Source: Leucocoprinus leucothites
Lineage: Eukaryota > Basidiomycota > Agaricomycetes > Agaricales > Agaricaceae
DNA: 64,000 nucleotides
Direction of reading: 5' to 3'
NCBI GenBank assembly: GCA_013368445.1
Contig: JAACJO010000056.1
Location: 19,389 to 83,388 of the forward strand
Shown: positions 19,526 through 56,465 of the stretch, in pieces
Layout: each line of letters starts with the position of its first letter
Position numbering within the stretch: position 1 is the stretch's first letter
Made by a program: the position numbers and the translations under genes
Notes under the pieces: model-generated
Database searches by the model: none
Told to the model about the DNA's origin: nothing
What the model saw: only the letters and a program-made list of their open reading frames with translations

Positions 19526-22500
19526 ATGGGTCTGTTCGACTCAACCCGCTACTTTCTCGCATCGTCGATTCCTCCACACCGACAAGAACAACTGGAATAC
19601 GCACTCTCCAAGAACGGTGCTACGAAAGCTGAAAGCATACATAGTGCGACACATGTGATTAGTGATTCTCCTTGGTTTGAGGGTGTGGATATTCTTGAGA
19701 GCGTGAGAGAGGAGAGGAGAGAGAAAGGCGAGGAAGCCGAGATTGTCGTTGTTTCGGCAAGTGATTTGGTTGAGAGTGTCAGCGAGTGCTGATGTAGACC
19801 GCTATTGTAGGACTACTGGGTGGATCGGACATTGGTTTTGGGCAAGATTCAACCGTGAGTGCTGATTTGGTACGAATTGTAGCGTTGATTAACCTGATGA
19901 TGAACAGAGCACAGTATTATTCTGTTGATCCTGCCATGATATTTTCGGGTATCGTAGCCTGCGCATCAGAGGTCCGTCTCCAATCATTGTTGCGTTCACC
20001 TCTAGCTCATTCCGACACCCTCTCTTCGCACTGGCTTGTACAACGCAGCTCCAAGCGCATGATCTTGAAGTCCTCTCTGCAGGCATATCAGCCCTTGGCG
20101 GTCAATGGCGTGTCGCACTCACCAACGACGTAACACACCTCTTCTGCATTACACCTTCATCCGCCAAATACGCCGTCGCATTGGCACACCGCGAAACTAC
20201 AGGCATTAGAATCATCTTACCGCATTGGTTTGATGATTCCGTAAAGCTGGGGATTAGAGGTCTACCAGTAGAGCCGTATTCATGGCCTGATCCTCCATTT
20301 TTGAAGGATATTGGGGTGAATGTGAATAAGTTGGGGAGAAACGAGGGCGAGGAGGGAGAGGGGAAGGCGAATTGTGAGGGAAAGGAGGAAGAGAGATTGA
20401 AAGAGAAGGCGAAGAAGAATATGATGCTTACTGCGGGTCAATTCACGCCCTCCGCATCTAACCCGAAGGTGCCATTACCGAAAGATGCCGACTTGTTACC
20501 TGTGAAACGCGGTGTATTTGACAACAAGCGGATTCTTCTCAGTTGGACGCTGTCGTTGTACGGTTCGAGAAGAGAGGCAGTTGAGGTGGGAATTAGGAGG
20601 GCTGGAGGAGTGGTACTGAGGTATCCTGGAGATGGTGAAGATGATTTAACCACGGAGGAGAAGGAGAAGAGGAGGGATAGGAAGGAGGCGAGAGCCGTGG
20701 TGGAGTGTGATATTTTGATTACGAGATGGAGGAACGGGAAGGCATATGGAAAGGTGAGCGTTTTGACCGAAAGCTCGGGAGAAATGTGCTTATTTATGAT
20801 TTTTTCAGGCGTTTAAGCTTCACAAGACGATTGCGACAATGGCCTGGCTATATCATGTCCAATCGTCCGGCCTGATGCCGAGACCGGTTGACCAACTACT
20901 GCATTATCCTGTTCCACGGAAACCTATCGAAGGATTCTCACAACATGTACGTTGATCACTACATAGATGTGCACGTTCTTACATGTTGCAGGAAATTACC
21001 GTGACGAACTATACTGGCGAAGCTCGTGAATACATTAAACGAATCATCACCGCTATGGGCGCCAAATTTACACCTATGATGACCGGTCGTAACACCGTTC
21101 TCATCGCCGCATAGTACGTTATTCATTTGGCCGTTAATGCATGCATGTAATAACGCAAATATCTAGTATCCAAGGTCAAAAGACGGACAAAGCCCGAGCG
21201 TGGTCACTTCCTATTGTCAACCACACCTGGCTCGAAGACTGTTTCATTCAGTGGCGGCATTTGACCATGGCCACAGATAAATACATCACGTTTCCGACTG
21301 GAGTAGATTTCAGTCGGTCGTTTGGTGAGAGAGGCGTTGGCGTACGTGGGGTGGAGCTGTGTGATGAAGAGGAGATGAAGGAGGATGAGGGGAATAGTGA
21401 TGAGGAGGGTGTGTATGTCGGGGTGGATGTGAAAATGGATGGAGAACAGGAGGATGAGGTGTCGAAGAGGAATGTGGAGGAGGATATCGACATGATCAGT
21501 ATGCCAGACACCGATGATCGTGGACGGGATACGACGTTTGAGCATGTCGAAGTGAATGGCAAGACGTCGCCTGTAAAGTCAAAATCGGCATCGGGGTCAC
21601 CGACAAAACGGAGTGTGGTCCCTACTTCGTCGTCGCCTACCAAACAGGGTGCGACAGCTTCTTCGGTCATGCAGGTTTCGCCGAACAAACGGACGAAATC
21701 AAAGTCTGTATCGCCGATGAAGAAGAGAAAGATCGTGATTGATGATGAGGATGAAGAGAGGATGGAGGTAGATCAACCTGCGCGGTCACCGAGTGACGGT
21801 GTTGCCGCAAACAAGAAGCGTCAGACAAAGTCGGGTCGGACGCCGAGAAAGTCAGTCGTGATGGATGTCAGCAGTTCTGAAGAGGGACAAGTGCAACCTG
21901 TCACCCCGACCAAGCCATCGAAACCGAAGCCCAAATCGACGCCTGTCACTTTTTCGTCATCGAAGAAACAGTCTTCGGTGGACTTGGAATTGACAGATGA
22001 GAGTGAGAATGAGGAGTTGGAGATGGGGGTGTCCGAGTTAGTGAGGTCGTCAGCTGCTGCGAGGGCTAAGGCAAGGGAACAAGGTAGTGCCAGCCCGAAG
22101 AAGAAGCGGAGGGTGGACACTAATGATGATGATGATGATGATGAGGATCACAAGGGGCGTGGGCCGTCGGCGAAGAAGCCAATTTCGCGGGTTGATGATT
22201 CAAGTGAGGGTGGGGAGGAGGAGGAGGAGGAGGAGGAGACTGTGCCAAAGGCGAAGAAGAGGTTTGTCCGGCGGCTTACTAGCGAGACGAGTCTTCAATT
22301 GGCCGAGGAGCGAGAGAAAGAGCGAGCTGAAGGATCTTCCACAAAGTCGAAGCAGCGTCTTGTGCGTCGCGCGAGTGCAAAGACGGGAGAGGATGCAGAA
22401 GAAACGGCTCAGCATGATGAGGAGAATCTTGACAAGTCATCGAAAGAGCAGAAGGAAGAGGAGAAAGCAGATACACCCGCGTCTAAACCTGGTGGGCTGC

Positions 22501-24385
22501 TAAGAACGACTCGAGGCGATGCTCGTACACGCGTCAAAGCCAAATCTGCGGGTGCGAAAGCGAGAGAGTTGTATTCTGATAGTGAGAGTGAGGTGGAGGG
22601 GTTAGTAGGACCCGAGGCTCTGGGTTCCTCGCTTCCTGCGAAAGGAAAGGCGAAGGGGAAAGGGAAGGGAAGGGCGACAAAGTCAAACAGGGGCCTGAAG
22701 TCCAAGTCGAAGAGGGTTTCGTCGTCTTCCGAGGAGGAGGTGGAAGTGGAGAGCGAGAGTGAGGATGAGGAGACGAGCAAGAAGAGGCCACCAGCTACCA
22801 CAGACGTGTCACCATCGAGGAAAATGGTTTCAGTTGTGGTTGAGTTACCACCTCCTTCGGCCAGAAAGCATCCACTGAAGAATACCTATGGTGGCACGGC
22901 AAATAAGGCGAAGAAGAAGGCGAGAGGTGATGAAGATGAGACTGAAGAGGAACAAGAGGAAGAACCACCGTCGAAGCCGATGACGAAGCGCGGGTCGGCT
23001 GTCAAGAAAGCGGATAGCATATTTGTCGAAGTTGGTGAAGCACAAGGATCCCCCTCCACGTCTACTTCTCGTCCCAAACCAAAGCTGAAACCCAAACCAA
23101 AATCATCACTATCCAAACCTACAACCTCATCACCACTCTCATCGATTGATAATGCCCCGCCCAACGTCAACAGCACCGATACCACAGGCTACAACACCGC
23201 TAGCGAAACACAAGAGCCACTCCCAGCGAGGAGAGGTGCCGCCGCAAAGGCGGAAGCAAAATTGAAGGAGATGATGCCTGATGCGACTCGATATGAGCAG
23301 GAGGCTAAAAGGGCGAGGAAGAGTGGTGGGTGGACGAGTTTGTGGGAGAAAGAGCTGGAGAGGCAGGTCAAGGATAAGGAAAAGGAGGAGAAAGGGAAGG
23401 AGAAGGAGAATAGAAAGAAGAGGGCGTCGGATGTGAGTGGTGAAGACGTCGAGGAGCGTGTGGCGAAGAAACGTAGGAGGTCAAGCGCTGTGAAGGGTGA
23501 GGAAGAGGAGGGTGGGGGTGAGGTGGAGGTGGTGATTAGTGAGGTGAGGAAGGGCAAGACGAAGGTGAAAAGGGAGTCCGATACGGGCACTTCTCCGACA
23601 AGATCGAATAAGGTGTATTTGATGACGACGCAGGTGACACTTGGTGCTGATGTGGTCAAGGTGTGTATCGCGTCACCTCGCTACTGCTGGGATTTAACTA
23701 TCGAATAGGCGCTGGATAAACTTGGTGTCGTTATGGCTTCAAAAGCCTCGCAGTGCACGCACCTGATCGCTCCGAATTTAGTCCGAACGGAAAAGTTCCT
23801 GTGTGCGTTGGCATCTGCGCCAGTGGTTCTGCAAGAAGCGTGGGCTATCAAGTCGGCGCAAGTAAAACAGCTATTACGTGCGTCAATGCCTCTCAATTGA
23901 AATCACGGCTGACAATGATTTCTTGTCCTTCTGCAGCTTTTGAGAAATTTCTACTTCGTGACGCTGCCGCCGAAAAGAAGTATCGTATGAAGCTCAGTGA
24001 TGCGCTCGCGAGAGCAAAAGAACTCAAAGGGACATTGCTCGCGAATAAGACATTTTATCTGACTGCCAAGACAAAAGTGGATTATAAGCTCTTAAAGAGT
24101 GTCATCAGCGCTCATGGTGGCCAGGTACGTCTATATCTCTTCTCCCATCGCCTCAGCAATTAATATCTAATTCATAAATAGCTCTTACAGCAATCGCCGA
24201 CAGTCCGACAGCTCACCGGTCACGCGGATCGACATATAATTTCTTGTGCTGAGGATATATCGATTTGGAGGCCGTTGGCTGCACAGGGTGTACCGATTTA
24301 TACGCATGAGTTTTTATTGATTGGGGTATTGAGGCAAGAGTTGGACTGGGATTTGATGGAATTTAGAGTCGCAGGGTCGGTGTGA
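19526..24385 (+). CDS. Six-BRCT DNA damage-response scaffold, Rtt107/Brc1-like (copy A, the only intact copy)
   Basis: Ten exons (19526-19756, 19811-19854, 19908-19971, 20049-20753, 20809-20946, 20992-21113, 21167-23660, 23709-23877, 23937-24124, 24182-24385) give 1452 aa in frame. BRCT 1 (about 1-100) has THVISDSPWFEG and VSDYWVDRTLVLGK. BRCT 2 (about 103-195) has VTHLFCITPSSAKY and ILPHWFDDSVKLG. BRCT 3 spans about 245-390 and BRCT 4 about 395-490 (VNHTWLEDCFIQWR). A linker of about 750 residues, rich in K, E and S, follows. BRCT 5 (about 1250-1330) has QCTHLIAPNLVRTEKFLCA and BRCT 6 (about 1345-1440) has GTLLANKTFYLT and YTHEFLLIGVLRQELDW. Four N-terminal plus two C-terminal BRCTs is the Rtt107/Brc1 layout. 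In yeasts these scaffolds bind gamma-H2A and Slx4/Smc5-6 partners during replication stress. Intron 1 starts with GC instead of GT. The stop is only 259 bp before NACHT-2. Confidence 0.88.
22081..22250 (+). repeat. Low-complexity acidic codon runs in the BRCT linker
   Basis: Runs of GAT (22,123-22,146) and GAG (about 22,215-22,240) triplets encode poly-Asp and poly-Glu tracts in the linker of BRCT copy A. Similar GAG/AAG-rich stretches continue to about 23,540. They create long antisense open frames, which I treat as shadows. The decayed copies B, C, D and E have shorter or missing versions. Confidence 0.7.
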
Positions 24386-24644: not shown

Positions 24645-26696
24645 ATGCCATTCTTCGCTAGAAGTAAACGGGTCAACGTCAAAGGAGGTACCTTTATTGA
24701 AGCTGAAAATGTCCTAAACGTTCATCATCATCCCTCTTGTGAGTGTTGTACCTACTGGGACCCTCCTAAATGTCTGAATAACAATGTGTTTGTGATAATC
24801 AGTCGATCCTGGTTTCGACAAACTACAGGCCGCCTCCCTACCTCAAGCCATGCACGACTCCTCTGCTCGCGACCCTCCTCGCTGCTTCCCCGGTACCCGC
24901 GAAGAGCATCTGCGAACCATCACTAGCTGGGGAAGGGACGAGTGGGAGGATATTCGAACCCGTATTTTGTGGATGCAGGGGCCTGCTGGTGTTGGAAAGT
25001 CTGCGATCGCTCAAACGTGGGTGGAGGGATTGGAGGGCAAACACGGCGCTTCATTCTTCTTCTCTCGAGCAAATCACTGGAACGATCCCAACAAGTTCAT
25101 TCCGACGATCGCTTATCAACTCGCCACCAAGTACCCCTCATATCGGGAAGCCGTCAGTGCCACCATCGTCCGGGATCCGTTCGTCCTGCAAAAATCGATC
25201 AATACCCAGTTTCGGGAGCTCCTCGTGGAACCACTCCGCGAGTTGAGTTCCGAAGATCGTGATGCCAGCGACAATGTCGTCGTCGTAATTGATGGTTTGG
25301 ACGAATGTGACGGTCTGGAAGCGCAGGATGCCATCGTTCAAGTGATCATTACATCTGTCGCAGAAGGAACATCTCCCTTCTTGTGGGCGTTTTTCACTCG
25401 CCCTGAACCCAATATCGTGGCCAGTTTCTCTTCCAACCAGGCGAAAGACCTGTGCTGGTACCTTACATTGCCGGTCTCTCGTGACGCGGACAAGGACATC
25501 GAAGCATACCTTCGTGATGGGTTTCGGACCATAAGGAAGAGGTGTCACATCCCTGATGCCCTACGCTGGCCGGAGGAGGAGGATGTCCTTCGGCTTGTTG
25601 AGCAATCTGCTGGATTGTTCGTCTATGGAGCCAGCGCCATGCGATTCATCACCCTTGGACCTGGACTACCGGGCCCTCCAGAGCGTCTCAAATCTTTGCT
25701 TGATTTAGGGAACAACGCCAGTCATCCTCTGGCTAAGCTTGACCAGCTCTATCTTCTCATCATGCAGCAAATACCGAAGGATATCCTCCAGAATACGTTG
25801 CTCATCCTCACCTACAATGAATTAGCATCCACGTCCATCTCCACTATGTGTATCGTGCTCAACTTCTCGGAAGCAACAATTTATTCCCTTGTTCAGAATC
25901 TTCACTCCGTCCTTGAAGTGAAGCTTCAAAGTGTAACTAGCAATGCCTATCTTCGATTTTATCATGCATCCTTCACTGATTTTTTGAACGCGCCCGAGAG
26001 GTCGACGTCAGAGTACTGCATACGAACACAGACGTTCTTCAGTCGAATCTACTCTGCTTTTCTTGACCTCGCTTGCACTCCACCGCTTCTTTGCTCCCCA
26101 GATCCAACTACCGGTGCGTACGTCAGCAGAAGTGAAGACTAAAGCCCTAACTGGCCGTGTACCATAGGACTCTGCTCGCGAAGCTGCTCGAATGGCGACG
26201 CAGCAAAGTCGACAGCGCACTATATAGCATTGTTTGACCTCATATCCCTTCCTTCGAGTATGCACCCCTTGTATAAACCTTGCGAAGATCCCTGCTCCCT
26301 GGACAGATTGCCGCTTGTTAAGTGGAACTTCGCAGAAGTTCATTCCCCCATGTGGGGCATGTCAGGGGAAATTTTCGCAGAATTCATCAATGGGGTATTC
26401 TAGTACATTTCGACATCACTTTCATTGCTCATTTCTACTTGCAGATCCCTGAAAAGCGGCGGTCCAGTATCATCAAGAGCACTCCAGCTAGGGTGACTCT
26501 ACTCAGTAGAGTAAAGGGCTTGGTGCTACGACGCGCTTCCCCAAGAGCATACACTTTGGGAACCGGAAATCACATGGCGCTACTGATTCGCTCGGGGGAT
26601 GGTTTTTATCGCCTCAGTAATATCGAACCATTGAAAACCAGCAAAAACCCCCTGAAACGCTTTTTGTCGCTGGTTCGGTTTCAAATTCGTTCTTGA
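24645..26696 (+). CDS. NACHT NTPase (NACHT-2), array unit A
   Basis: Four exons (24645-24738, 24803-26113, 26168-26394, 26445-26696) give 627 aa. Exon 1 encodes the short N-terminus with KGGTFIEAENVLNVHHHPS. Walker A GPAGVGKS is at residues 91-98, Walker B VVVVIDGLDEC ends at residue 200, and the sensor arginine in FFTRPE is at 231. The NTPase is followed by LVEQSAGLFVYGASAMRFI and LDQLYLLIMQQIPKD. Exons 3-4 carry the tail with CEDPCSLDRL and IPEKRRSSI...YTLGTGN. No C-terminal repeat domain is present. Exon 2 alone stays open past its donor, but splicing at ACCG|GTGCGT extends the protein by 158 residues, and the same splice works in all paralogues. A partial second copy of exon 4 lies just downstream. 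Confidence 0.92.
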
Positions 26697-26896
26697 TACC
26701 ACGGGAGTAGATTGTCTGGTGATAGTAGATTACCGAGATTTCCCTCAGCCTTCTTTCATTTATAAAATAGCTACTTGCAGCTTGATAGCATCCAGCAAAA
26801 TTAACTATTATTGAGTTTATCGGATATCGTATAACTATATTGTCCGCTGGCGCCACGATGTCTCCTGTGCTCTCAGATACATATGCAGCACCTTCA

Positions 26897-27240
26897 AGTG
26901 TACACTTTGGGAACCGGAGATCACATGGCGTTACTTGTTTTTGATGCAAAATATGCAGAGCACGATTCGTATAAATTCAGCACTATCGAACCATCAAAAA
27001 CTAGCAAAAATTCCTTGAAACGTCTTCTATCGCTGGATCGGCTTCTTCACCTTTGATACCACGGGAGTAGATTTCCTGATGATAGAGTAGATTCGTTAGA
27101 CATCACTAGGCCTCCTTCCAGTTGTAAAGTAGCTTCTTGGTGATGTTCACAAAAATCAGCCGCTGTCGAGTCTGTCGGATATTGTAAAACAACTACATTA
27201 CCTACTGGGCTACGGCATCTTTTGGGTTGACAGAGATGTA
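26897..27240 (+). repeat. Local duplicate of the NACHT-2 last exon and 3' flank
   Basis: From 26,898 the sequence repeats the stretch that starts at 26,551 (ACACTTTGGGAACCGG, then CACATGGCG and ACTATCGAACCATC), offset by about 347 bp. It includes the end of exon 4, the stop region and the same 3' flank (CACGGGAGTAGATT). NACHT-3 lacks it; there the common flank runs on into the spacer at 36,143. This is a local tandem duplication that has since diverged; it has no exon 1-3 and is not a gene. Confidence 0.75.
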
Positions 27241-29345
27241 TGAAAAACGGTGATCACTGAACGAGCGAATTATTATAATAGAGCCTCGAACGAATCTGAT
27301 TACCTAACAGCCAACCGAGAATATTCCACCGCCTTGTCCCCATGCTCTGGCACTCTTTCTTTTTCCCTTCAGTACACTCCGAACATAATCATCGGATAAT
27401 GCCTAGCACACGCACTCTCGCTTACACCAACCACAAGCTCGTGTCGTATACCTGTCCCTTTTTATCCCTGTTCCGAACCTTCTTCTCCACGAGGATATAA
27501 GAATAGGAGGACTATTCGACGATGTGATCGCGGTAGGGAATGAGAGTGGAGTGCACGGTGCATTGACAGAAGTTTATGATAGCTCCGCGATTTGCGAGTG
27601 TACGCAGGGTTCAGGATTCTCGAGAGCTGGTATGAGCGGCAGGAAGGGATGATGTACTGTTCTTGTGCGAATGCATGGAGGATTGTTAGATTTTGGTTTT
27701 ATGAATGTAGCGGGCGATGTACTTCTCTAACCGTTTGATTTGAAGATGGATTTCAAAGAATAATATACGATACATCGGTTTTCACTTAGCATGGCGTGTA
27801 TGGGGATGTAAATTGTCAAACTTGGCAGTAATGGGAATGGGCGATAAAACTCTCGAGCTCAGGCTCTCAGTCCTGATTCTCTGGGCAATTTCTCTGAGCT
27901 CATTCAGCGTGATCTTTCCAGCTCCTTGCACGGCTCTTGTAATATCATTCGAACTGGCACGCAATGCCATCTAGGCATACCTAGCGAGCATACGGGAATG
28001 CTTTCAAATGCGGACGGAAGGACAGCTTTACTGCCTAATCAACAGGCTACACAATCGAAAGTGGGGGCCGTTGGTTGTTGCTGAATGAACCGAAGACTAC
28101 GATAATTCTGAACAGAAAAACATCAAACCTAAAATTATGTTTTACGTCTTGCTTCAGCTGTATGATCAAGTCCTCGTCACCATCCAGCTTACTCGCCTCC
28201 AAGCACCTTCTGGCCCTCAACGTCGGCTCATTCAGTATCCTTGCGAATTATCGACGGTTTTTCTCCCGACAAACTAGTCATACACTCGAGTGGCATAAGT
28301 CTCACCGTCGAGTAAGGATCGACGGTCGGAGTTGAACAGGAATGAGGGTTTGAATATTCATTCTCATAGACCGTGTGGATGATATAGCTGATTGGCGGTA
28401 TGTTTGGGACAGAATCGAGCTGAAGCTAATCGATGCATTGTTTGTGGAAAATATAACATGGTTTAAAGATGAGGGGCGAAAAGTGTCAGATGTGAAGGCA
28501 AGAGAATGAGTGCCTTGAGGAGTTGATTGAGCTGTTGATATAAAGCTTTTTGCAGACACAGAAACAGAGGGGTTGGGAGGGCGCGGACGCTTTCGAGCAA
28601 GTGATTTATGAGTGTTCGAGATTGCGAGAGTTGGGTCTTCAGCGGGGAAATATATATGTAATAGCTGCTAAAAGGATAAGGAACCGATGATGACAATTCT
28701 CATCGAAAATTCGAAATTGAGATGGCCGCAATCTGCGGCTACGATCTTGCTATCGGGTGCGGAGCCTTCTGAGACACGTCTAGTACAGCTCCAGTCTGCA
28801 AATCTATGACAAGTTTAGGACATCCGGAAAATATATGGATTAAACTTTTGCGTAGTGGAGTGGATGTGAAGTTCCCAATTTACGAGCTCACTAAACGTAT
28901 CGATAGCTTTTCCTCTGACAGCGATAATATTAGAATGTATCGGGATTAGGTGAGATTATCGATAACATGCGGTCGCAATGGACGAAGCGCGGAAATTGGG
29001 ACAGAGTGGCCTCGGACGAGGTTCAAAACCAAACGAGCGCACCACATTCATTAGATTATTGTATAGCGAGCCGCTCATCGGGTCAATTTCCCAGGCTTCG
29101 TCCTTCTCACGCCTGTATTCCGTGACTGTGACCAAATAGCCATCAACGTGATTATATTGGCCAAGTTTCTTTCCAACCGCACAGTGTGCCCTGGGTTCAG
29201 CGTTCTCTTCCTCGTCAATTTCCCTGTGCGATTCCGAAACAACATCCCTTTACATGTCACACATCTAGAAATAAACGGCGTGCGCCATCTTGTTCATTAA
29301 AGGAAGCCTACACATCGATTCAGAACCACGAAACAGCTATCGGTA
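27241..29345. other. Spacer of unit A, with decayed conserved minus-strand sequence
   Basis: This 2.1-kb spacer shares scattered blocks with the spacers at 36,150-37,690, 43,400-44,760, 50,500-51,020 and 56,600-57,370. Two minus-strand frames recur: one around 27,782-27,970 and one around 28,463-28,696 (LYQQLNQLLK). Their counterparts lie at 36,144-36,365 and 44,060-44,554. They look like remains of a third gene caught in the duplication unit, but I do not recognise a family. The right end, from about 28,940, is the 5' flank of the broken Chs7-like fragment. Confidence 0.5.
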
Positions 29346-29596
29346 TGCCTAATGAATCGAACTCCCTCGTTGCCGACTCTGTTTGGCGCATTTCCTGTGG
29401 TACAGCTCTCAAGGTTTCATGATCTCACATGTTTTTTCACATACATACATCCCAATTCCACAAGTTCGCTGCGCCTTGCCTCCCTCAAGCCTCTGGCCGA
29501 GACCATGGAGCGCAGTTATGGACTGCATAGTGGTTCCCCTCTTGCGAGTGAATAGCTGGAGATGCGAGATTCCTTGAATAAGTCACGACGGGTCGT
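29346..29596 (+). pseudogene. Broken 5' fragment of a Chs7-like gene (unit A/B junction)
   Basis: This is the remnant of exon 1 and part of exon 2 of a Chs7-like gene. It aligns with the clearer copy at 44,764-45,023, and ends at the CACGACGGGTCG motif that corresponds to 58,918-58,929 in exon 2 of the right-arm Chs7-like gene. Reading frames are broken. Directly after this motif the sequence switches to the end of BRCT exon 1. All later Chs7 exons are absent, so it cannot make a chaperone. Confidence 0.6.
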
Positions 29597-32500: not shown

Positions 32501-33628
32501 CGAAATTGAAGGAGATGATGCCTGATGCGACTCGATATGAGCAAGAGGCTAAAAGGGCGAGGATGAGTGGTGGATGGACGAGTTTGTGGGAGAAAGAGTT
32601 GGAGAGGCAGGTTAAGGATAAGGAAAAGGAGGAGAAAGAGAAGGAGAAGGAGAATAGAAAGAAGAGGGCGTCGGATGTGAGTGGTGAAGACGTCGAGGAG
32701 CGTGTGGCGAAGAAACGTAGGAGGTCAAGTGCTGTGGGGGGTGAGGAAGAGGAGGGTGAGGGTGAGCTAGAGGTGGTGATTAGCGAGGTGGGGAAGGGAA
32801 AGACGAAGGTGAAGAGGGAGTCCGATAGGGGCATTTCTGCGACAGCGTCGAACAAAGTGTATCTGATGACGACGCAAGTGACACTTGGTGCTGATGTGGT
32901 CAAGAGTGTATCGCGTCACCTCACCACTGCGGGGATTAAATTATCGAATAGGCACTGGAGAAACTTGGTGTCGTTATGGCTTCAGAAGTCTCGCAGTGCA
33001 CGCACCTGATCGCTCCGAATTTAGTCCGAACGGAAAAGTTCTTGTGTGCGTTGGCATCTGCGCCTGCGGTTCTGCAAGAAGCGTGGGCTATCAAGTCGGC
33101 ACAAGTAAAACAGCTATTACGTGCGTCAATGCATCTCAATTGAAGTCACGGCTGACAATGATTTCTTGTCCATCTGCAGCTTTTGAGAAATTTCTACTTC
33201 GTGACGCTGCCGCCGAAAAGAAGTATCGTATGAAGCTCAGTGATGCGCTCATGAGAGCAAAAGAACTCAAAGGGACATTGCTCGCGAACAAGACATTTTA
33301 TCTGACTGCCAAGACAAAAGTGGATTATAAGCTCTTAAAGAGCGTCATCAGTGCTCATGGTGGCCAGGTACGTCTATATCTCTTCTCCTATCGCATCAGC
33401 AATTAATATCTAATTCATAAATAGCTCTTACAGCAATGGCCGACAGTCCGACAGCTTACCGGTCACGCAGATCGACATATAATTTCGTGTGCTGAGGATA
33501 TATCGATTTGGAGGCCGTTGGCCGCACAGGGTGTACCGATCTATATGCACAAGTTTTTATTGATTGGGGTATTGAGGCAGGAGTTGGACTGGGATTTGAT
33601 GGAATTTAGAGTCGCGGAGTCGGTGTGA
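29597..33628 (+). pseudogene. BRCT (Rtt107/Brc1-like) pseudogene, copy B
   Basis: It is homologous to copy A from the end of exon 1 to the stop. Exon 1 is absent, replaced by the Chs7 fragment. An in-frame deletion of about 500 bp joins HLFCTT to EKKEGKAVAEYDILITRW, removing most of BRCT 2 and part of BRCT 3. Exon 5 has a TAG where copy A reads TCG, exon 6 has a damaged acceptor (GCAAG for GCAGG), and exon 7 has further stops (GATGAATAG at about 30,690; AAATAG at about 31,222) and frameshifts. The 3' half recovers a long frame, 31,753-33,009, covering the linker and the start of BRCT 5. The donor after GATGTGGTCAAG has lost a base (AGTGTA for GTGTGT), so exon 8 no longer joins in phase. BRCT 6 exons remain readable. 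Confidence 0.88.
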
Positions 33629-44763: not shown

Positions 44764-45023
44764 TGAATCGAATTCCCTCGTTGCCGACTCTGTTTGGCGA
44801 ATTGCACACGACGCGGCTCTCAAGGTTTTATGCAGTCCGACGGAGGCATTCATGGTGTCCCATATTTCTTCGCATACGTCTATCCCAATTCCGCCGCGTT
44901 TTACCCCCTCCAGCAGATCGAGACAGTCGAACACATTACATCGTTACGGACTACATAGATGCTCCCCTCTCGCAAACGAATAGCCGAAGATGCGGGATTT
45001 CTCGAATAGGCCATGACGGGTCG
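44764..45023 (+). pseudogene. Broken 5' fragment of a Chs7-like gene (unit C/D junction), clearest copy
   Basis: The last 34 bases (44,990-45,023) match exon 2 of the right-arm Chs7-like gene at 58,896-58,929 with 31 identities. The encoded CGISRIGHDGS corresponds to CGIPRIGHDGS there. Upstream, WRIAHDAALKVLCSPTEA resembles exon 1 of Chs7-like proteins (FGDFQPLCSGTPS in the right arm), though small indels break the frame. After position 45,023 the sequence changes to BRCT. This copy fixes the identity of the four fragments. Confidence 0.7.
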
Positions 45024-48000
45024 TCGGGTCGGTAAGTGATTTGATAGAGGAGTCAGTGGACGTTGATGGAAGTTATCATTGTAGGATTATTGGGTGGATT
45101 GGGACGTTGGTCTTAGGCGAGATTCAGGCGTGAGTGTTGGTATAGGGTGAATTGCAGTGTTGTTTAACCTGACGAATGAACAGACCTCAATATTATTCCG
45201 TTGATTCTGCCATGATATTCTCGGGCATCGCAGCCTGCGCATCAGAGGTATGGTCTGTCCTTTTCACATCTTCCGCTCTAGCTAACTCCAACGCCCCCTC
45301 TTCGCTCTGACTTTCGCAATGCAGCTCCAAGTGCACGACCTTGAAGTTCTCTCGACAGGCATATTAGCGCTCGGCATCAATGGCCTGTTGCGCTAACCAA
45401 CGACGTGACACACCTCTTCTGCATAGCACCCTCATCCACGAAATATGTCGTCACACTGGCCTACCACGGAACTACAGGCATTAGAACCATCTTGTCGCAT
45501 GGGTTTGATGATTCTGTAAACCTAGGGATGAGAGGTCTAAGAGAGGCTGTAGGAGAAGGCGAAGAAGAATATGATGGTTACTGCGGGTCAGTTCACAACC
45601 TCTGTGCCTCACCCAAAGATGTCATTACCCCAAGATGCGGACTTGTTGCTGTGAAACACGGCGTGTTTGACAACGAGTGGATTCCTCTCGCTGGTCATTG
45701 TCGCTGTGCAGCTCGAGAACGGAGGCTGTCGAGGTGGGTATTAGGAGAGCGGGTTGGAGTGACGTTGAGGTATCCTGGAGATGGCGAGGATGATTTGACC
45801 ATGGAGGAGAAGGAGAGGAGGAGGGATAGGAGGAGGCGAGAGCTGTGGTGGAGTGTAATGTTTTGATTACGAGATGAAGGATTAGGAAGGCGTATGGAAA
45901 GGTGAGCGTTTTGATCAAAGCTTGCGGGAAACGTGTTTGTTTATGATTTTAGGCGCTCAAGCTGCATGAGACTGTAGGGACTATGGTGCGGCTATACTAT
46001 GCCCGGCCGACCAACTACTGCATTATCCTCTTCCGCAGACCGCAGAAACCTATCGAAGGATTCTAATAACATGTACGTTGATCATCTTACATATGCGCAT
46101 GATCTTATATGTTATAGGAAATCACCATAACAAACTACACTGGTGAATCTCGCAAATACATCAAACGCATCATCACTGCCATGGGCGCCAAACTCTCACC
46201 TATGATGACTGGTCGTAACACCATCCTCATCGCCGCATGGTATGTTCTCTATATTACCAGTAATCCACGCGTGTATTCATATATCTATCCGGTATCAAAG
46301 TCAAAAGACGGACAACGCCCCACCCTGGTCACCTCCCATCGTCAATCACACCTGGCTCGAAGACTGTTTCATTCGATGGTGACATTTGACCATGGCCAAA
46401 GATAAATACATCGCGTTTCCGACTGCAGTAGACTCAGTCGGTGCTTTGGTGAGAGGGGCATTGGCATACGCGGGGTGGAGCTATGTGATGTCGAGGGGAT
46501 GCAGGAGGATGAGGGGAGCAGTGATAAGGAGGCCGTGTATGCAGGGATAGATTTGAAAATGGATGGAGAGCAGGGGAATGAGGTGTTGAAGCGGAGTGTG
46601 GGGGAGGATATTATCGTGATTGGTATACTGGATACCAACGATCCTGGACGGGATACGGCGTTGGAGCACATCGAAATGAATGAGACGTCACCGATACAGT
46701 CTAAATCGGAGTCGGATTTACTTACAAACGGAGTGTGGTGCCCACTTCTTCGTCGCATACCAAGCGGGGTGCTACAGGTTCTTCGGCCATGCAAATTCTG
46801 CCGACCAAACGGATGAAATTTAAGTTGTTATCAGCTGTGAAAAAGAGGAGGATTGGGTCTGAAGACGAGGATGAGGAGAGGATAGAGGTAGATGAGCCTG
46901 CACAGCTACCGATTGACGACAATGCTGAGGAGAACACGAAGCGGCAGAAGAAATCGGGCCGAACGCCGAGGAAGTCAGTCGCGATGGACGTTAGTAGTTC
47001 CGAGGAGGAATGAGTGCAACCTGTCACACTGGCCAAGACGGCGAAGATGTAGCCGAAATCGACACCTGTCACTGTTTCATCATCGAAGAAACAGCCTTCG
47101 GTGGACTTGGATGTGATGGTGAAAATATTGAGGAACGTGTAGTAAATAAATGGAAAAGTTGAGTGCTGTGAAGAGTGAGAAAGGGCAGGGCGAGGAAGGG
47201 GGTTGGGTGGAGGTTGTGATTAGCGAGGTGAGGAAGGGCGAGACGAAGGTGAAGAGGGAGTCCGATACGGGCATTTCTGCGACGGGGTTGAATAAGGAGT
47301 ATTTGATGACGATGCAGGTGGCACTTGGTGTTAATATGGTCAAGGTGTGTATCGCGTCACCTCACGACTGCTGGGGTTTAATTATCGAATAGGCATTAAA
47401 GACACTTGGTGTCATTATGGCTTCGAGACCCTCGCAGCGCACGCGCCTGACTGCTCCACAACTGGTGCGAACAGAAAGGTTCTTGTGCGCGTTGGCATCT
47501 GTGCCTGTGGTTCTGCAAGAGGCGTGGGTTGTTAGGTCGGCGCAGGCGAAACAGTTATTACGTGCGTCAATACCTCTCAATTGAAACCACAGGTGACGAA
47601 AATTTCTTTTCCTTGCGCAGCTTTTGAGAAATTTGTATTTCAAGCCGCTGTAGCCGAAAAGAAGTATCGTATGAAGCTCAGTGATGCGCTTGCGACAGCA
47701 AAATAATTCAAAGGGACATTGCTCGCGAACAGGACATTTTATTTGACTACCAAGACAAATGTGGATTACAAGCTGTTAAAGAGTGTCGTTAGCGCCCATG
47801 GAGGCCAGGCACTTCTATATCTCTTCGCACCTCGCCTCAGCAAGTAATGTGACTCAACTATGTATGTATAGCTCTTGTAGCAATCACCGACAGTCCGACA
47901 GCTCACTGGATATGTGGATCGACATATCATCTCGTGTGCTGAGGATATATCGATTTGGAGGGCGTTGGCTGCAGAGGGCGTTACCGATTTATACGCACGA

Positions 48001-48077
48001 GTTTTTTGTTGATTGGGGTGTTGAGGCAGGAGTTGGACTGGTATTTGAAGGAGTTTAGAGCTGCGGGATCGGTTTGA
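45024..48077 (+). pseudogene. BRCT (Rtt107/Brc1-like) pseudogene, copy D
   Basis: It begins at TCGGGTCG|GTAAGT, the copy-A exon 1/intron 1 border. It retains BRCT 2 pieces (VTHLFCIAPSSTKY) but loses the rest of exon 4 after GIRTILSHGFDDSVNLG by deletion and frameshift. The linker is cut by the same internal deletion as copy C, and the same AAGATGTAG stop appears at 47,044-47,052. Exon 9 has GCAAAATAA where copy A reads AAAGAACTC (about 47,703). The BRCT 5-6 region is still recognisable up to the stop at 48,075-48,077. An exon 6 block (MGAKLSPMMTGRNTILIAAW) is shared almost unchanged with copy C. Confidence 0.88.
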
Positions 48078-48349: not shown

Positions 48350-50369
48350 ATGCCATCCTTCGCTGGAAGTAATCGGTTCAAAGTCAAAGGAAGTACCTTC
48401 ATTGAAAATGAAACCATCAACGTTCACCATCATCCTTCCTGTGAGTGTTGTACATTGTGCCACCCCGGTAAATGTCTGAAATATGATGTATGTGTGATAA
48501 ACCAGTCGATCTTGGTTTCGCGAAGCTACAGGCCGCCTCCCTACCTCAAGCCATGCACGATTCATCTGCTCGCGATCCTCCTCGCTGCTTCCCTGGTACC
48601 CGCGAAGAACATCTACACACAATCACCAGCTGGGGAAAGGGCGAGTGGAAGGATAGTAGCACCCATGTTTTGTGGATGCAGGGGCCTGCTGGCGTTGGAA
48701 AGTCGGCGATCGCTCAAACATGGGTGGAGGGATTAGAGGGCAAACACGGCGCTTCATTCTTCTTCTCTCGAGCAAATCACTGGAACAATCCCAGCAAGTT
48801 CATTCCGACGATCGCTTATCAACTCGCCACCAAGTACCCCTCGTATCGCGAAGCCGTCTGCGCCACCATCGTCCGGGATCCGCTTGTCCTGCAGAAATCG
48901 ATCAATACTCAGTTTCAGGAGCTCCTCGTGGAACCACTCCGCGAGTTGAGCTCTGAAGATCGCGATGCCAGCGACAAAGCTGTTGTCATAATTGATGGCC
49001 TCGACGAATGTGATGGTCTAGTAGCGCAGGATACCATTGTTGAGGTGATCGTTACGTCCGTCGCTGAAGGAACATCTCCCTTCTTGTGGGCGTTTTTCAC
49101 TCGCCCTGAACCCAATATCGTGGCAAGTTTCTCTTCCAGCAAGGCGAAAGACCTGTGCTGGTACCTGACATTACCGGTCTCTCGCGACGCAGACAGGGAC
49201 ATCGAGGCGTATCTTCGCGATGGGTTTCGGACCATAAGGACGAGATATCACATCCCTGAAGTCGTACACTGGCCGTTGGAGGAGGATATTCTCTGTCTAG
49301 TTGAGCAGTCGGCTGGATTGTTCATTTATGGAGCTAGTGCCATGCGATTCATCACCCTCGGTCCTGGACTACCGGGCCCCGCAGAGCGTCTTAGGATTTT
49401 GCTCGAAATAGGCAGCAACGCCAGTCAACCGCTCTCTAAGCTTGACCAGCTCTACCTTCTCATCATGCAGCAAATACCGAAGGATATCCTCCAGAATGCA
49501 TTGCTCATCCTCACCTGCGACCAATTGATGGAAACTTCCGGGGTGGAGGTCTCCTATATGTGTATTTTACTTAATTTTTCCGAAGCCACATTTTACTCCC
49601 TTCTTCATAATCTTCACTCCGTCCTTCAAGTACAGCCTTTCGGTGAACACGGTGCCCGCTATCTTCGATTTTATCACGCTTCCTTCACCGACTTTTTGGA
49701 GTCACCCGAGAGGTCGACACCAGAGTACTGCATACTAACACACAATCTTTTCGGCCGACTGTACTCTGCATGTCTTGACCTTGCTTGCGCTCCACTGCCC
49801 CTGAGCTCCCCAGATCTAGCCACCGGTGTGTACATCAACAGAAGTGAAGGCTAAAGCTGTAACTGATCGTATACAGGAAGGCACTGTTCGGAATGTCACT
49901 TGGGTGGGGACATGGCAAGGATGGCGGCGTACTTCAGGGCGGTGATTGGACTCATAAGGCTTCCCATAGTGATGTTCCCCCGGTATCAACTCCGCGCTGA
50001 TCCTGGATCTCTGGACAGATTGCTGCTTGTCAAGTGGAACCACCCAGCTGCCCAAATTCCGGGTACTTCCCTGCGGAAGGACGAAATCGAATTTTTCATC
50101 AAAGAGGTATTCTAGTATATTTCGATCTCACTTTCACCACTCATTTATATTCGCAGATCCCAAAAAAATGGCGGTCCAGTATAATCACGAGTGCTCCAGT
50201 TAGAGAGTCCCTACTCAGTAAAGTAAAGCGCTTGGTGCTTCGACGCGCTTCCCCCAGAGTATACACCTTGGGAACCGGAAGCCGCACGGCGTTACTAGTC
50301 TTTGATGAAGAGTATGGTTGTTATGATTTCGGTACTATCGCACCATCGAACACTAGGAATATTCCTTGA
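48350..50369 (+). CDS. NACHT NTPase (NACHT-5), array unit D
   Basis: Four exons (48350-48440, 48506-49825, 49877-50106, 50157-50369) give 617 aa. Exon 1 encodes KGSTFIENETINVHHHPS, one codon shorter than in NACHT-2 to NACHT-4. Walker A GPAGVGKS, Walker B VVIIDGLDECDG and sensor FFTRPEPNI are intact. Distal exon 2 has its own variant (MCILLNFSEATFYSLLHNL with QPFGEHGARY). The tail is normal through VYTLGTGSRTALLV but stops at SNTRNIP, about 14 residues before the usual end, because of a TGA where other copies read an LKDLL-type sequence. The protein is otherwise complete, so I call it functional. Confidence 0.88.
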
Positions 50370-51027
50370 AATGTCTTCTGTCGCTGACTCGGTTCCAAGC
50401 TTGCTTTTGATACTACGGGAGCAGATTGTCTGGAAAAAGGGTAGATTCGCCAGACACTACTCGGCCTTCTGTCATTTGTAAAGTAGCTTCTTGGCGGCAT
50501 TCAGAAAAATCAGTTGTTGAGTCTGTCGGAGACTTGTCAACTACACAGTTTCTTCTGCCGTCACAGATACGTACGACGACAGCAAATTAACACAAATTCC
50601 TGACAATGACGATTGTTCCGTGCTTGATTTTAATCAATAACAGGTGGTCGCAGATCACATTGCTCATACAATTGGACAGAGTGGCTCCAAGAGAGATTCA
50701 AAACTGAACGAGTGCAGTGACTGCATTCAGTATACAGTGTTATTGCAGAACGAGCCGCCGACTCCGATCACACCCAAACCTGTGACTGTGACCAAATATC
50801 CATCAACGCGGTTATTTTGGGGTTATTTTGGACAGGTTCATTTCAGACTACACAGTGCGCCATGGGCTCCAGCGTTCCCCTCCTCGTCAATTCCCCTGTG
50901 TGATTCTAAAATGATATCCCTTTGTATGCTATACATCTAGGAATAAACGACGTGCACCATCTTGCTTACCAAACGAAGCCTACGCATTGATCCAGGAACG
51001 GGACCGCGAAACAGCTATTGGGATGCC
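50370..51027. other. Short spacer of unit D
   Basis: At about 0.65 kb this is the shortest spacer. The NACHT 3' flank passes directly into the Chs7 flank (GGACAGAGTGGCTCC near 50,680, TGTGACTGTGACC near 50,780). The minus-strand recurring block has been deleted. A local duplication GGTTATTTTGGG occurs near 50,812-50,830. No gene. Confidence 0.5.
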
Positions 51028-51291
51028 CAATGAATCGAATTCCCCCATCATTGACTCTGTTTGGCCACGACGCAACTCTCAAGGTTTCATGCTGACCAAT
51101 GGAGGCGTTCGTGATGTCCTATGTTTCTTCGCACGCATCTATCCCAATTCCACGAGTTCGCCGCGTCTTGCCTCCCTCAAGCCTCTGGCCGAGACCATGG
51201 AGCCCAGTATACCGTTATGGACTCATGGTAGTCCCACTCTTGCAAGTGAATATCCGGAGATGCTGAATTCCTCGAACAGGCTACGACGGGT
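51028..51291 (+). pseudogene. Broken 5' fragment of a Chs7-like gene (unit D/E junction)
   Basis: It is homologous to the other three fragments (CCAATGAATCGAATTCCC at its start is also near 29,346). It ends at CTACGACGGGTCG just before BRCT copy E. It is frame-broken, and exon 3 onward is absent. Confidence 0.55.
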
Positions 51292-54138
51292 CGTTGAATC
51301 GATAAATGATTTGATAGAGAAGTCTGTGGACGTTGATGAAAGTTGTTATTTGTAGGACTATCGGGCAGATCGGACGTTGGTCTTGGGCAAGATTCAGTTG
51401 TGAGTGTTGATTTAGGATGGATTGCGGTGTTGTTTAACCTGATGACAAGCAGACCACAGTGTTATTCTGTTCATGCGACGATATCCTCAGGTACCGCGAC
51501 CTGCGCATCAGAGGACCACCTTCCATCTCTTTCACGTCCTCCGCTCTAGCTTCTTCTCTTCGTGTTGGTTTGTCCAACACAACTCTAAACGCATGATCTC
51601 GCCGTCCCCTCCGCAGACATATCTGCCCTCTGTAGTCAATGGCACGTAGCACTCACCGACGACGTGACACATCCCTCCTGTACCACGCCCCTATCAACCA
51701 AATACGCCATCGCACTGGGCCACCACGCAAATACAGGCATTATAATCATCTTACCCCATTGGTTTGCTGATTCGGTAAAGCTAGGGATTAGCGGTCTACC
51801 AGTAGAGTGCCATTCGTGGCCTGATCCTCCATTTTTGAAGGATATTGAGGTGAATATGAGCAAGCTGAGGAGAAATGAGGGGAGAAGGCAAGGGGAAGGC
51901 GAACTGTGAGAGGAGGGAGGAAGAGGGGTCGAAAGAAAGGCGGAGAAAACATGATGCTCACTGCGGACCAGTTCACGCCCTCCGCATCTAATCCGAAGAT
52001 GCCGTTACCGAAAGATGCCGACCTGTTGCCTGTGAGCTGCAGTGTATTCGATAACAAGCAGATTCTTCTCCGTTAGACGTTGTCGTTGTAGGGAGACGGT
52101 TTAGTCGAGAATTGGGAGAGTGGGAGGGTTGGTGTTGAGGTATCCTGGAGATGGTGGTGATGATTTAACCACGGAGGAGGGGGAGAGGAGGGGAGAGCTG
52201 TGGCGGAGTATGATGTCCTGATTACGAGATGGAGGAGTTGGAAGGCGTATGGAAAGGCAGGCACTTTGAACAAAAGCTCGCGAGAAACATACTTATTCAT
52301 GATTTTGTTAGATATTGAAGCTATACGAGACTACTGGGACTATGACGTGGATATACTATGTCCAATTGCTCGCCTGATGCCGAGATCGGTCGACCAGCTG
52401 CTGCATTATCCTATTCCGCGGGACCTGTCAAAGGTTTTTAAAGCGTGTACAATGATCATTTCATATGTGCGCACGTTCTTACGTGTTACAGGAATTTACT
52501 GTGACGAACTACACCGGCGAAGCTCGCGAACACATCCAATGTATCATCACCGCGATGGGCGCCGAGTTTACACCTATGATGACCGGTCGTAACACCGTCC
52601 TCCTCTCCGCATAGTACGTTCTCCGTATGATCATTAAGCCACTCATGTATTTACGCATGTAACTAGTATCCAAGCCCGAAGACGGACAAAGCACGAGCAT
52701 GGTCACTTCCCATTGTCAATCATACCTGGCTCGAAGGTTGTTTCATTCAATGGCGTTACTTGGTCATGGCCACCGATAAATAGATCATGTTTCCGACTGG
52801 AGTGGATTTTTGGTGAGAGGGCGTTGGAGTGCACGGGGCAGAGCTATGCGATGAAGAGGAGATCACGAGTATGAGGAGAGTGGTGATGAGGTGGGAGTGT
52901 ATGCGGACATGGATGTGAAGATGGATGGAGAGCAGGAGGATGAGGCGTTGAAGAAGAGCGTGGAGGAGGATATCGACATGATTAGTATGCCGGATACCGA
53001 CAATCCTGGACGGGATATGACATTTAACACGTCGAGATGAATGGGAAGACGTCGCCTGTAACCTTGAAATCGGCACCGGGCTCACCAACGAAACGGAGTG
53101 TGGTACCTACCTCTTCGGCGCCTACCAAACAGGATGCGAAAGCTTCTTCGGCCATGCCGGTTTCGCCGACCAAGCGGACGAAATCAATGTCGGTATCACA
53201 GACAAAGAGGAAGGTCGCATCTAAAGGAGAGGATGAGGAGAGATTGGAGGTAGACGAACCCGCGCAGTCACCGAGTGACGATGACGCTGAGGAGAGCGAA
53301 AAGCACCAGGGGAAGTCGGTTCGGACGCCGCATACGGGAATTGCTGCGGCAGCGTCGAACAAAGTGTATTTGATGACGATGCAGGCGACACTTGGCGTTG
53401 ATGTGGTCAAGTGTGTATCGTGTCACCTCACCGCTGCTGGGATTTAACTATCGATTAGGCGCTTGAGAGACTTGGTGAGGTTATAACTTCGAGACCCTCA
53501 CAGTGCATGCACCTGATCGCTCCGAATTTTGCGCGAATGGTAAAATTCTTGTGTGCGTTGGCTTCTGCACCTGTGGTTCCGCACGACACGTGGGCTGTCA
53601 AGTCGGTGCAGGCGAAACAGCTATTACGTGTGTCAATACCTCTCAACTGAAACTACAGCTGACGATGATTTTCCTTTTTCGTGCAGCTTTTGCGATATTT
53701 TTACTCCAAGATCCTGCCGCCAAAACTAAGTATCGTATGAAGTTCAGTAAGGCACTCACGAATGCAAAAGAACTCAAAGGGACATTCCTCACAAACAAGA
53801 CGTTTTATCTGACTACCAAGTCAAAAGTGGATTATAAGCTATTAAAGAGCGTCGTCAGCGCTCATGGTCGCCTGGTGCGTCGATATCTATTTGCACGTCG
53901 CCTCAGCGACTCATGTGACTCACCCGTGTATGTATAGCTCTTGCAAAAATCGCCGACAGTTTGACAGCTCACCGGACATGCGGATCGGCATGCCATTTCG
54001 GAGTTGAGGATATATTGACTTGGAAGCCGTTGGCTGCATAGGTCTACCGATTTATACCATGAGTTTTTATTGATTGGGGTGCTGAGGCAGTAATTGGACT
54101 GGGATTTGATAGAGTTTAGAATCGCGGGATCGGTGTGA
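51292..54138 (+). pseudogene. BRCT (Rtt107/Brc1-like) pseudogene, copy E
   Basis: It starts at the same border as copies B-D (TTGAATCG|ATAAAT, donor lost). Exon 4 keeps PHWFADSVKLGISGLPVECHSW but is frameshifted after 51,890. Exon 7 has a TAG near 52,782 (GATAAATAG) and loses almost the whole linker by a deletion that joins KSVRTP to TGIAAAASNKVYL (about 53,330). This breakpoint differs from the C/D deletion. The donor at the end of exon 7 has lost one G (GTCAAGTGTGTATC for GTCAAGGTGTGTATC). BRCT 5-6 exons are readable but carry substitutions; the stop is at 54,136-54,138. Confidence 0.88.
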
Positions 54139-54408
54139 GGATATGAAGGCGTCATTTTCCACGACATGGATTTAGCTTTTGGGAGTTTGATTTGTTTATT
54201 GTGGTTTTGTTTATGGCATTTTATACTAGCTTTGTGGTTGGCTCCCCGCGGTTCGGGTTGCTTCTTCGTGGGTACAAAGTCAGTCATTTAGCTCTTTTAT
54301 GTCGATTGTAGTGTTCTGCTGGGTACTGACGCTTGGTCCTAGCTCCCATCGCACTCTCACCGTTCTGCAGCGCCTTCCGCCTTGGGCTGACCACAACACT
54401 TTGTCATT

Positions 54409-56465
54409 ATGCCATTTTTTCGCTGGGAGTAATCGCTTTGAAATCAAAGGAGGTACCTTCATTGAAAATGAAACTGTCAACGTCCACCATCATCCTTCCT
54501 GTGAGTGTTTTACCTGGTAGCATCCTGGTAAACGGCTGAACCATAATGTGCTTGCGATAAATCAGTCGATCCTGGTTTCGACAAGCTACAGGCCGCCTCC
54601 CTACCTCAAGCCATGCACAATTCCTCTGCTCGCGATCCTCCTCGCTGCTTCCCCGGTACCCGCGAGGAACACCTACGAACCATCACTAGCTGGGGAAGGG
54701 GCGAGTGGGAGGATACTCGAATCCGCCTTTTGTGGATGCAGGGGCCCGCTGGTGTTGGAAAGTCGGCGATCGCTCAAACATGGGTGGAGGCACTGAAGGG
54801 CAAGCTTGGTACTACATTCTTCTTCTCCCGAGCGAACCACTGGAACGACCCCAACAAGCTCATTCCGACAATCGCTTACCAACTCGCCACCAAGTATCCC
54901 TCGTATCGCGAAGCCGTGTGCGCCACCATTGTTCGGGATCCCTTTGTCCTGCAAAAGTCGATCAGTACCCAGTTTCAGGAGCTCCTCGTGGAACCACTCC
55001 GTGAGTTGAGCTCTGAAGATCGCGATGCCAGTGACAGCGTCGTCGTCATAATCGATGGCCTAGACGAATGTGATGGTCTGGAGGCGCAGGATGCCATCGT
55101 TGAAGTGATCATTACATCCATCGCCGAAGGAACATCTCCCTTCCGGTGGGCATTTTTCACTCGCCCTGAGCCCAATATCGTGGCCAGCTTCTCTTCCAGC
55201 AAAGCGAGAGACCTGTGCTGGTACCTGACATTGCCGGTCTCTCGCGATGCGGACAAGGACATCGAAGCATACTTTCGTGATGGATTTAGGACTATACGAG
55301 CAAGGTATCGCATCCCTGAAGTTGTACGCTGGCCGGAGGAGGAGGATATCCTCCGACTTGTTGACCAGTCGGCTGGATTGTTCGTCTATGGAGCCAGTGC
55401 CATGCGGTTCATCACACTTGGCCCCGGACTACCGGGCCCTGAAGAACGTCTCAAGGCTTTGCTCGAAATAGGAAACAACACCAGCCAACCACTTTCTAAA
55501 CTTGACCAGCTCTACCTTCTCATTATGCACCAGATCCCGAAGGATAGCCTCCCGAATACACTACTCATCCTCACCTACAATGAGGTGATAGGATCCCCTG
55601 GAAGGGATGTCTCCAAAATGTGTATTTTACTGAACTTCTCGGAAACGACATTTTATGCCCTTCTTCATAATCTTCACTCCGTCCTTGAAGTACCATCCTT
55701 GGTGAAAGATCGCCGTCTTCGGTTTTATCATGCTTCTTTCACCGACTTTTTGAAGACCCCTGACAGGTCGACACCAGAGTACTGCATACGAACGCACAAT
55801 CTCTTCAGTCGGCTCTACTCTGCCTGTCTTGATCTTGCTTGCGCTCCGCTGTGCCCGTGCTTCCCAGATCCAACTATTGGTGTGTGCATCCGCTGAAGTG
55901 GAGACTAAAGCCCTGACTGATCGTGTGCAGGAGGACGCTGCTCGGGAAGCTGCTCGGGTGGCAATGAAGCAAAGTTGACAACGCAGCAAGTCGCATTACA
56001 TGAGCTCATAAAGCTTCCTCGCTTAATGCTCCCTTGGTATAAACTCTGCGAGGATCCTGGCTCTCTGGACCGACTACTGCTTGCCAAGTGGAACTATGCA
56101 GCAAACGACTCGCTGACGTTTGTCCTGACGGAGGACGAAGTCGAAATTTTCGTGAAGGAGGTACTCAATTGCATTTCGGTGTTACTTATGTCGCTCATTT
56201 CTACTCGCAGATCCCAGAAAAATGGCGGTCTAATGTAGTCACGAGTGCTCCAGCTAGAGAGACTTTATACGGTATGGCAGCGGGCTTAGTGCGTCAACGC
56301 CCTTCCCCCAGAGTATACACTTTGGGAGCAGGAAGTCACATGGCGTTACTAGTCTTTGATGAATTGCAGGATCGATATAGATTCAGTAATATTGAACCAT
56401 CGAACACTAGCAAAAATTCCCTGAAAGATCTTCTGTCATTGGTTCTGTTTCATGTTTATTCTTGA
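54409..56465 (+). CDS. NACHT NTPase (NACHT-6), array unit E, with an exon 1 frameshift
   Basis: Exons by homology: 54409-54500, 54566-55879, 55931-56160, 56211-56465. Exon 1 begins ATGCCATTTTTTCGC, where the other copies read TTCTTCGCT or similar; one extra base in the T run throws the frame to an early TAA. From the conserved internal ATG at 54,613 (QAMHNSSARD) all the rest is open: Walker A GPAGVGKS, Walker B VVIIDGLDECDG, sensor FFTRPEPNI, then the tail to LSLVLFHVYS. Started there, it would lack only about 47 N-terminal residues and keep the NTPase. Because the difference is a single base in a homopolymer, it may be a sequencing artefact. Otherwise it is a mild truncation or an early step of decay. 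Confidence 0.8.

Follow-up and report, generated by a model that had tools for sequence, protein, structure and literature searches.

Breakpoints within neighbouring genes may account for a subtelomeric tandem array of NACHT genes with a hypervariable exon in Leucocoprinus leucothites

In the text available to us, the HNWD (het-d, het-e) NACHT-WD40 family of Podospora anserina is described as undergoing diversifying selection on its putative sensor, with exchange among its copies (PMC4986451, PMC12222747). The accessible part of a survey of Sordariales NLR (NOD-like receptor) clusters reports 2-5 genes per cluster, with only 16/272 made of paralogous copies, and proposes unequal crossing-over and conversion (PMC12258605). 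NLRs with short N-terminal amyloid-like motifs appear in the portion at hand of a study on Agaricomycetes (PMC9815663), and an excerpt of a fourth source names Leucoagaricus leucothites CBS 146.42 as a litter decomposer whose genome has been published (PMC9469724). Here we describe an array in Leucocoprinus leucothites in which NACHT genes alternate with copies of an Rtt107/Brc1-like gene encoding BRCT domains. The array lies in a window of 64,000 nt (GenBank assembly GCA_013368445.1, contig JAACJO010000056.1, positions 19,389 to 83,388 of the forward strand; coordinates below are those of the window), which forms the right-hand end of a contig of 83,388 bp (C56) in a 47-Mb genome. In our literature search, neither this array nor an Rtt107/NACHT unit came up; the one match joining NACHT, BRCT, tandem and fungi concerns, in its visible part, HEPN domains.

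Comparison of the window with itself revealed five units, each made of a BRCT copy, a NACHT gene and a spacer, all head-to-tail and starting at 19745, 29592, 37956, 45020 and 51290. Five such units of shrinking size had been claimed by a first-pass annotation of this DNA, and they are present there, with start-to-start spacings of 9847, 8364, 7064 and 6270 bp. A sixth NACHT copy (N0) is inverted (8899-6841) and has no BRCT copy beside it. The array is 7 kb from the contig end, which carries the telomeric repeat (TTAGGG)20 (63880..64000, + strand). The best explanation for the whole, to which we give a probability of roughly 0.6, is a tandem duplication truncated at its breakpoints that has produced NACHT receptors with a variable C-terminal sensor. 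A subtelomeric segment of about 10 kb was likely duplicated in tandem, with breakpoints inside the BRCT gene and a neighbouring Chs7-like gene; breakpoints so placed would leave NACHT as the sole complete gene in each unit and the extra BRCT copies headless from birth. The founding duplication would have taken a BRCT gene without its 5' part, the whole NACHT gene and a Chs7-like gene without its 3' part, and later units may have arisen by unequal crossing-over.

BRCT copy A (19526..24385, + strand) is intact, with 10 exons, one GC-AG intron among its introns and an open frame of 1452 aa. It contains RTT107_BRCT_5 (PF16770; 67.2 bits, cut-off 27) and C-terminal twin BRCT domains (PF16589, best stretch 1356-1440); the Pfam BRCT stretches overlap and are not separable into six domains. 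The best homologue, the BRCT protein NP233_g274 of Leucocoprinus birnbaumii, is 59% identical, and the closest homologue (P0001) matches Brc1 (3l40) and Rtt107 (6j0v). When the genome was searched with the L. birnbaumii protein, 35/35 matches fell on C56; no second intact Rtt107-like gene was found in these matches, and copy A was the only complete copy. Omega (dN/dS) on the branch leading to A was 0.17 in a codon model. Among the 120 of 1595 NACHT matches listed, no NP233 NACHT protein of L. birnbaumii is numbered beside NP233_g274.

The remaining copies, B (29592..33628), C (37956..40940), D (45020..48077) and E (51290..54138), all on the + strand, are 5'-truncated pseudogene fragments. Their homology to A starts in each case at position 19745 of A, 12 nt short of the end of exon 1, and they therefore have neither the start codon nor 73 residues; in the L. 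birnbaumii protein search (35 matches), residues before 113 were matched solely at A. To the left of the position equivalent to 19745, B-E resemble one another and not A, which points to a single junction common to all four. Apart from chance matches, the region 18000-19744 occurs only once in the window. The left breakpoint common to the later units is thus seen directly, in the final 12 nt of BRCT exon 1 (19745..19756, + strand; microhomology GTCG). The right breakpoint is likely in the first coding exon of the Chs7-like gene (58819-60202), where 34 nt (58896..58929, + strand) match the right ends of the spacers, at 91% in D, 85% in B, 79% in E and 76% in C (E 0.07 for C). With 58896-58929 as the right breakpoint, the junction shows a 4-nt microhomology, GTCG. 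Chs7-like sequences flank the array on both sides, at 3847-4452 (- strand) and 58819-60202 (+ strand), and a third is found on contig C36.

The four extra BRCT copies were thus most likely never whole, having probably been born without start codon and promoter, and a headless birth would mean that their decay can be explained without contrasting selection on two complete genes. The first-pass annotation had described A as intact and B-E as carrying stops, frameshifts and deletions. The lesions and the open frame of A are there, but B-E also have no more of exon 1 than its final 12 nt. Its proposal that whole BRCT copies hitchhiked and then rotted is not supported, given the shared 5' breakpoint and the presence of the rest of exon 1 in A only. 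Likewise, its statement that only the NACHT members survive is right in that NACHT frames are kept, but the positions of the breakpoints explain most of this pattern.

Exons 2-10 of B-E contain 53 out-of-frame indels, 35 in-frame stops and 6 deletions of more than 100 nt in 10.8 kb aligned. Outside the A branch the BRCT omega was 0.60, which is below 1 (2dlnL, twice the log-likelihood difference, 47), and on the terminal branches alone it was 0.68 (2dlnL 20). Distances in BRCT introns (0.15-0.39) lie between dN and dS in 10/10 pairs. The fragments are therefore strongly relaxed, though they are no textbook neutral set. Exons 8-9 (23709-24124 in unit 1, and counterparts) are free of indels in units 2-5, despite stops in exon 9 of C and D. 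The omega of 0.60 and these indel-free exons require either past constraint or conversion from copy A; the part of unit 2 that matches 21545-26899 of unit 1 is 88% alike, as conversion from A would give.

Both features could also be read as traces of copies that were once functional, if whole BRCT-NACHT units had been duplicated and complete BRCT copies had then decayed for want of selection. We consider this quite improbable, since four copies lose exon 1 up to the same point, with a common junction sequence upstream, and residues before 113 are matched at A alone. Scarcely less doubtful is the idea that the 3' fragments have been kept as a NACHT promoter or a recombination tract and are not mere passengers. 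All four fragments retain exons 8-10 beside NACHT (coverage 0.99-1.00), and BRCT introns 7-9 are 77-90% alike, which, with the indel-free exons 8-9, is what such a role would predict. However, the 259 bp directly 5' of NACHT are less conserved (0.76, with 2 indels per 100 nt), and the DNA of N0 differs beyond about 210 bp upstream, yet its frame is open. Truncation at the founding breakpoints remains the explanation we prefer for the BRCT fragments.

NACHT copies N1-N5, all on the + strand, have a common four-exon structure and retain P-loop and Walker B, as the first-pass annotation had reported. N1 (24645..26696; exons 24645-24738, 24803-26113, 26168-26394 and 26445-26696) is intact and encodes 627 aa. 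N2 (33888..35946) is intact, as is N3 (41215..43290; 635 aa), which equals the public protein D9756_011097 (P0121). N4 (48350..50410) has lost 1 nt in exon 4, close to the C terminus, and N5 (54409..56465) has one extra T after the start codon, its remaining frame being open. Together with N0 (6841..8899, - strand), which is intact, whole frames were present in 4/6 copies (N0, N1, N2 and N3). A single NACHT frameshift near a start had been noted earlier; this is the extra T of N5, but N4 is also damaged. In-frame 3-nt shifts of the acceptor are predicted for intron 1 of N2 and for intron 2 of N4 and N5, and the public models agree there. The public models of N0, N2, N4 and N5 (D9756_011089, _011095, _011099 and _011101) are fused, cut short or differently started relative to the four-exon structure. 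Just 3' of N1, at 26901-27139, there is a second partial NACHT exon 4 with flank, 71% identical to 26550-26777.

All six NACHT copies matched PF05729 (31.5-34.7 bits, cut-off 26.7) and PF24883 (79.6-82.8 bits, cut-off 24.8). Across 55 aligned sequences, residues of the P-loop and Walker B were either invariant or conserved to at least 90%, and the proteins show the fold order of nucleotide-binding domain, helical domain and winged helix. The N-terminus consists of 31 conserved aa encoded by exon 1, with pLDDT (predicted local distance difference test) below 50 in the model and no Pfam match. A Pfam scan of N3 (E 0.05) yielded only NACHT/AAA families, with no C-terminal WD40 repeats. We suggest that these proteins are repeat-less STAND (signal transduction ATPases with numerous domains) receptors, in which the conserved ATPase would act as a switch, the variable C-terminal segment would sense a ligand, putatively non-self, and the short conserved N-terminal motif would pass the signal on.

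Retention of the NACHT genes does look selected. Omega over the six copies was 0.50 (2dlnL 115 against 1), with 0.24 in codons 1-320 (the ATPase half) and 0.77 in codons 321-628; purifying selection on the ATPase half is thus strong. Out-of-frame indels numbered 4 in 9.4 kb of NACHT (five copies compared with N1, two of the four indels cancelling within N2) versus 53 in 10.8 kb of BRCT. These values support the earlier suggestion that selection keeps the NACHT frames; the dN/dS comparison proposed with it places both the NACHT genes and the BRCT fragments significantly below 1, and the NACHT value is not near 1.

In the C-terminal half, the site model M2a was favoured over M1a (2dlnL 58), with 12.6% of codons at omega 4.3. 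After masking, in which codons near indels and exon edges were removed, 2dlnL was 32-39 on three topologies, with 9-11% of codons at 4.4-5.0. The same comparison in the ATPase half returned one codon only (289; 2dlnL 9.3). In the masked set, the sites above 0.9 were 427, 487, 488, 491, 498, 529-532, 534 and 540 (two fewer on one topology), and all except 427 fall in exon 3 (26168..26394 in N1, + strand). Divergence of exon 3 was 0.354, versus 0.247 for introns 1-3 and 0.221 for introns 2-3, the bootstrap difference between exon 3 and introns 1-3 being 0.051-0.167. Exon 3 differs about equally at the three codon positions, for which the ATPase part gives 0.085, 0.060 and 0.234, and it has zero indels across the five units. 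Coding DNA that drifts neutrally would be expected to resemble the introns or the BRCT fragments; exon 3 is more variable than either, yet its frame is kept. It is likely the sensing part of the protein, with non-self as the putative ligand, as judged from this pattern of change.

The average omega of exon 3 is about 1 (0.94-0.99), which alone would fit lost constraint too, and silent divergence is raised around the exon, to which old alleles brought by recombination may contribute. As the units recombine (see below), the C-terminal signal could reflect, in place of diversifying selection, a constraint that has been relaxed, combined with recombination between divergent alleles of old standing. 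We regard this as somewhat unlikely. A class of sites with omega of about 4-5 was recovered on every topology tried, exon 3 diverges more than the introns of its own gene, and it is indel-free in five units, where the BRCT fragments have about 5 out-of-frame indels per kb.

Exchange between units was assessed by AU (approximately unbiased) tests on five segments of the units, whose best trees conflict. The BRCT 5' part gave (2,5)(3,4) and the BRCT 3' part (1,2)(3,4); the gap with exon 1 gave (1,3) with (2,4) or (4,5); and the NACHT core and C-terminus gave (1,2), with hardly any resolution among 3, 4 and 5. The BRCT 5' part rejects the trees favoured by the two segments that follow it (p 0.015 and <0.001), the BRCT 3' part rejects those of both its neighbours (p <0.001), and the gap with exon 1 rejects the BRCT 3' tree (p <0.001). 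Similarity between units 3 and 4 is 82-94% in BRCT windows from 20345 on, versus 61-76% in NACHT windows from 25745 on. These conflicting trees indicate that the units recombine. Conversion may reshuffle promoter and exon 1, the ATPase core and the C-terminal part among the copies.

Tentatively, the locus could be a subtelomeric generator of non-self receptors. Exchange among tandem units with spacer DNA of subtelomeric type in common would reshuffle a hypervariable recognition module (exon 3) against interchangeable promoter and N-terminal exons and against an ATPase core that is homogenised; the beheaded copies of the predicted DNA-repair gene in the later units would then serve as a near-neutral yardstick. 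The stronger find is the hypervariable exon, rather than the contrast in survival between the two genes.

Several points weigh against truncated duplication followed by diversification of a sensor. The results on selection and exchange come from the sequence of one genome, and the right breakpoint is placed by a match of 34 nt. The overall NACHT omega is close to that of the BRCT fragments, which is itself below 1, and exons 8-9 of those fragments lack indels. Recombination can inflate the M2a site test, silent divergence is raised where the site signal is strongest, and N4 and N5 each carry a 1-nt frameshift.

The lesions in N4 and N5 are of single nucleotides and could be base-call errors, which would suit an assembly artefact, and either this or repeat-induced mutation might be invoked for the array and its broken BRCT copies. 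We find this highly improbable. Per 300-bp window, similarity between unit pairs is no more than 60-96%, which rules out a duplicated assembly. Repeat-induced point mutation was also rejected: GC content shows no drop (flat at 0.45-0.53), and transitions are not dominant (P 0.08-0.18 versus Q 0.06-0.13 in BRCT introns). Moreover, the BRCT lesions include the 6 deletions longer than 100 nt.

N0 and a pair of NACHT genes on contig C17 have 330-440 bp of upstream DNA in common, which is absent from the array copies, and homology of the array NACHT genes to N0 begins 65 bp past the BRCT stop. From this, the founder of the array likely arrived as a copy behind the BRCT gene. The C17 pair, the two nearest NACHT relatives outside the contig, are both frameshifted; birth and death are thus visible, as far as the suggestion of a birth-and-death nursery goes. 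The DNA upstream of N0 (9056-10090) is about 71-76% similar to C56:7162-8124, left of the window. The genome has at least 164 NACHT places, 58 of them in 13 clusters (three or more places, gaps up to 20 kb), and the present array is one of the 13. The largest cluster, on C22, comprises nine places at intervals of 10-17 kb; where sampled, the clusters on C22 and C6 consist of tandem repeats. No truncated known passenger gene was found in those arrays in a thin sample (three stretches of C22 and two of C6); frames of at least 110 aa were taken from 2/5 stretches, and the 10 scanned comprised 2 NACHT frames and 8 without a Pfam match.

Spacer 1 (26697..29591, + strand) contains a part (about 27482-29292) similar to sequence close to the ends of contigs C3 and C19, where it is about 10 kb and about 15 kb, respectively, from TTAGGG tracts; such DNA is also on C64. 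Five reading frames from spacers or the right flank had no Pfam match. The 40 nt directly preceding the telomeric repeat (63831-63870) were found at 31 or more other places with 93-100% identity, and are perhaps the end of a mobile element where a telomere was added. Contig C2 has an internal (TTAGGG)n tract (C2:3107124-3107237), about 40 kb away from its telomeric end. Just 5' of BRCT A, at 17138-18888, there are Subtilase-like frames (Inhibitor_I9, Peptidase_S8).

When breakpoints alone decide which gene is duplicated whole, the survival of one partner beside a decayed one can wrongly be taken for contrasting selection. The broken passenger DNA in each later unit, likely from the same founding event, provides an internal control for near-neutral change. 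In the sources as available, the evidence of diversifying selection among fungal NLR-like genes is drawn from Podospora repeat domains; here such selection is suggested for a segment without recognised repeats in a basidiomycete family.

Copy A is like Rtt107 (regulator of Ty1 transposition 107) and Brc1 (BRCT-containing protein 1) in carrying RTT107_BRCT_5 and twin BRCT domains; unlike them, the extra array copies are fragments, and no functional link to NACHT is indicated. The likeness to the Agaricomycete NLRs, as outlined in the text at hand, lies in the short N-terminus (about 31 aa, exon 1) before NACHT and in many copies per genome; it is a likeness of length, position and copy number, the motifs of that study being given by its NLR05/08/22/29/44 profiles. 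As in the accessible account of Sordariales, fungal NLR genes are clustered in the genome and unequal crossing-over and conversion are invoked, but the L. leucothites genome has clusters of 3-9 NACHT places. The HNWD family, from what its available descriptions give, is likewise composed of NACHT STAND paralogues with diversifying selection on a putative sensor and exchange between paralogues, with the proviso that recombination may inflate the site test here. Incompatibility is reported in Podospora, whereas the Leucocoprinus array is known from its sequence alone. The two also differ in where variation resides: HNWD proteins vary on a WD40 repeat surface, and the Leucocoprinus proteins in a C-terminal segment that has no recognised repeats and is centred on a single exon.

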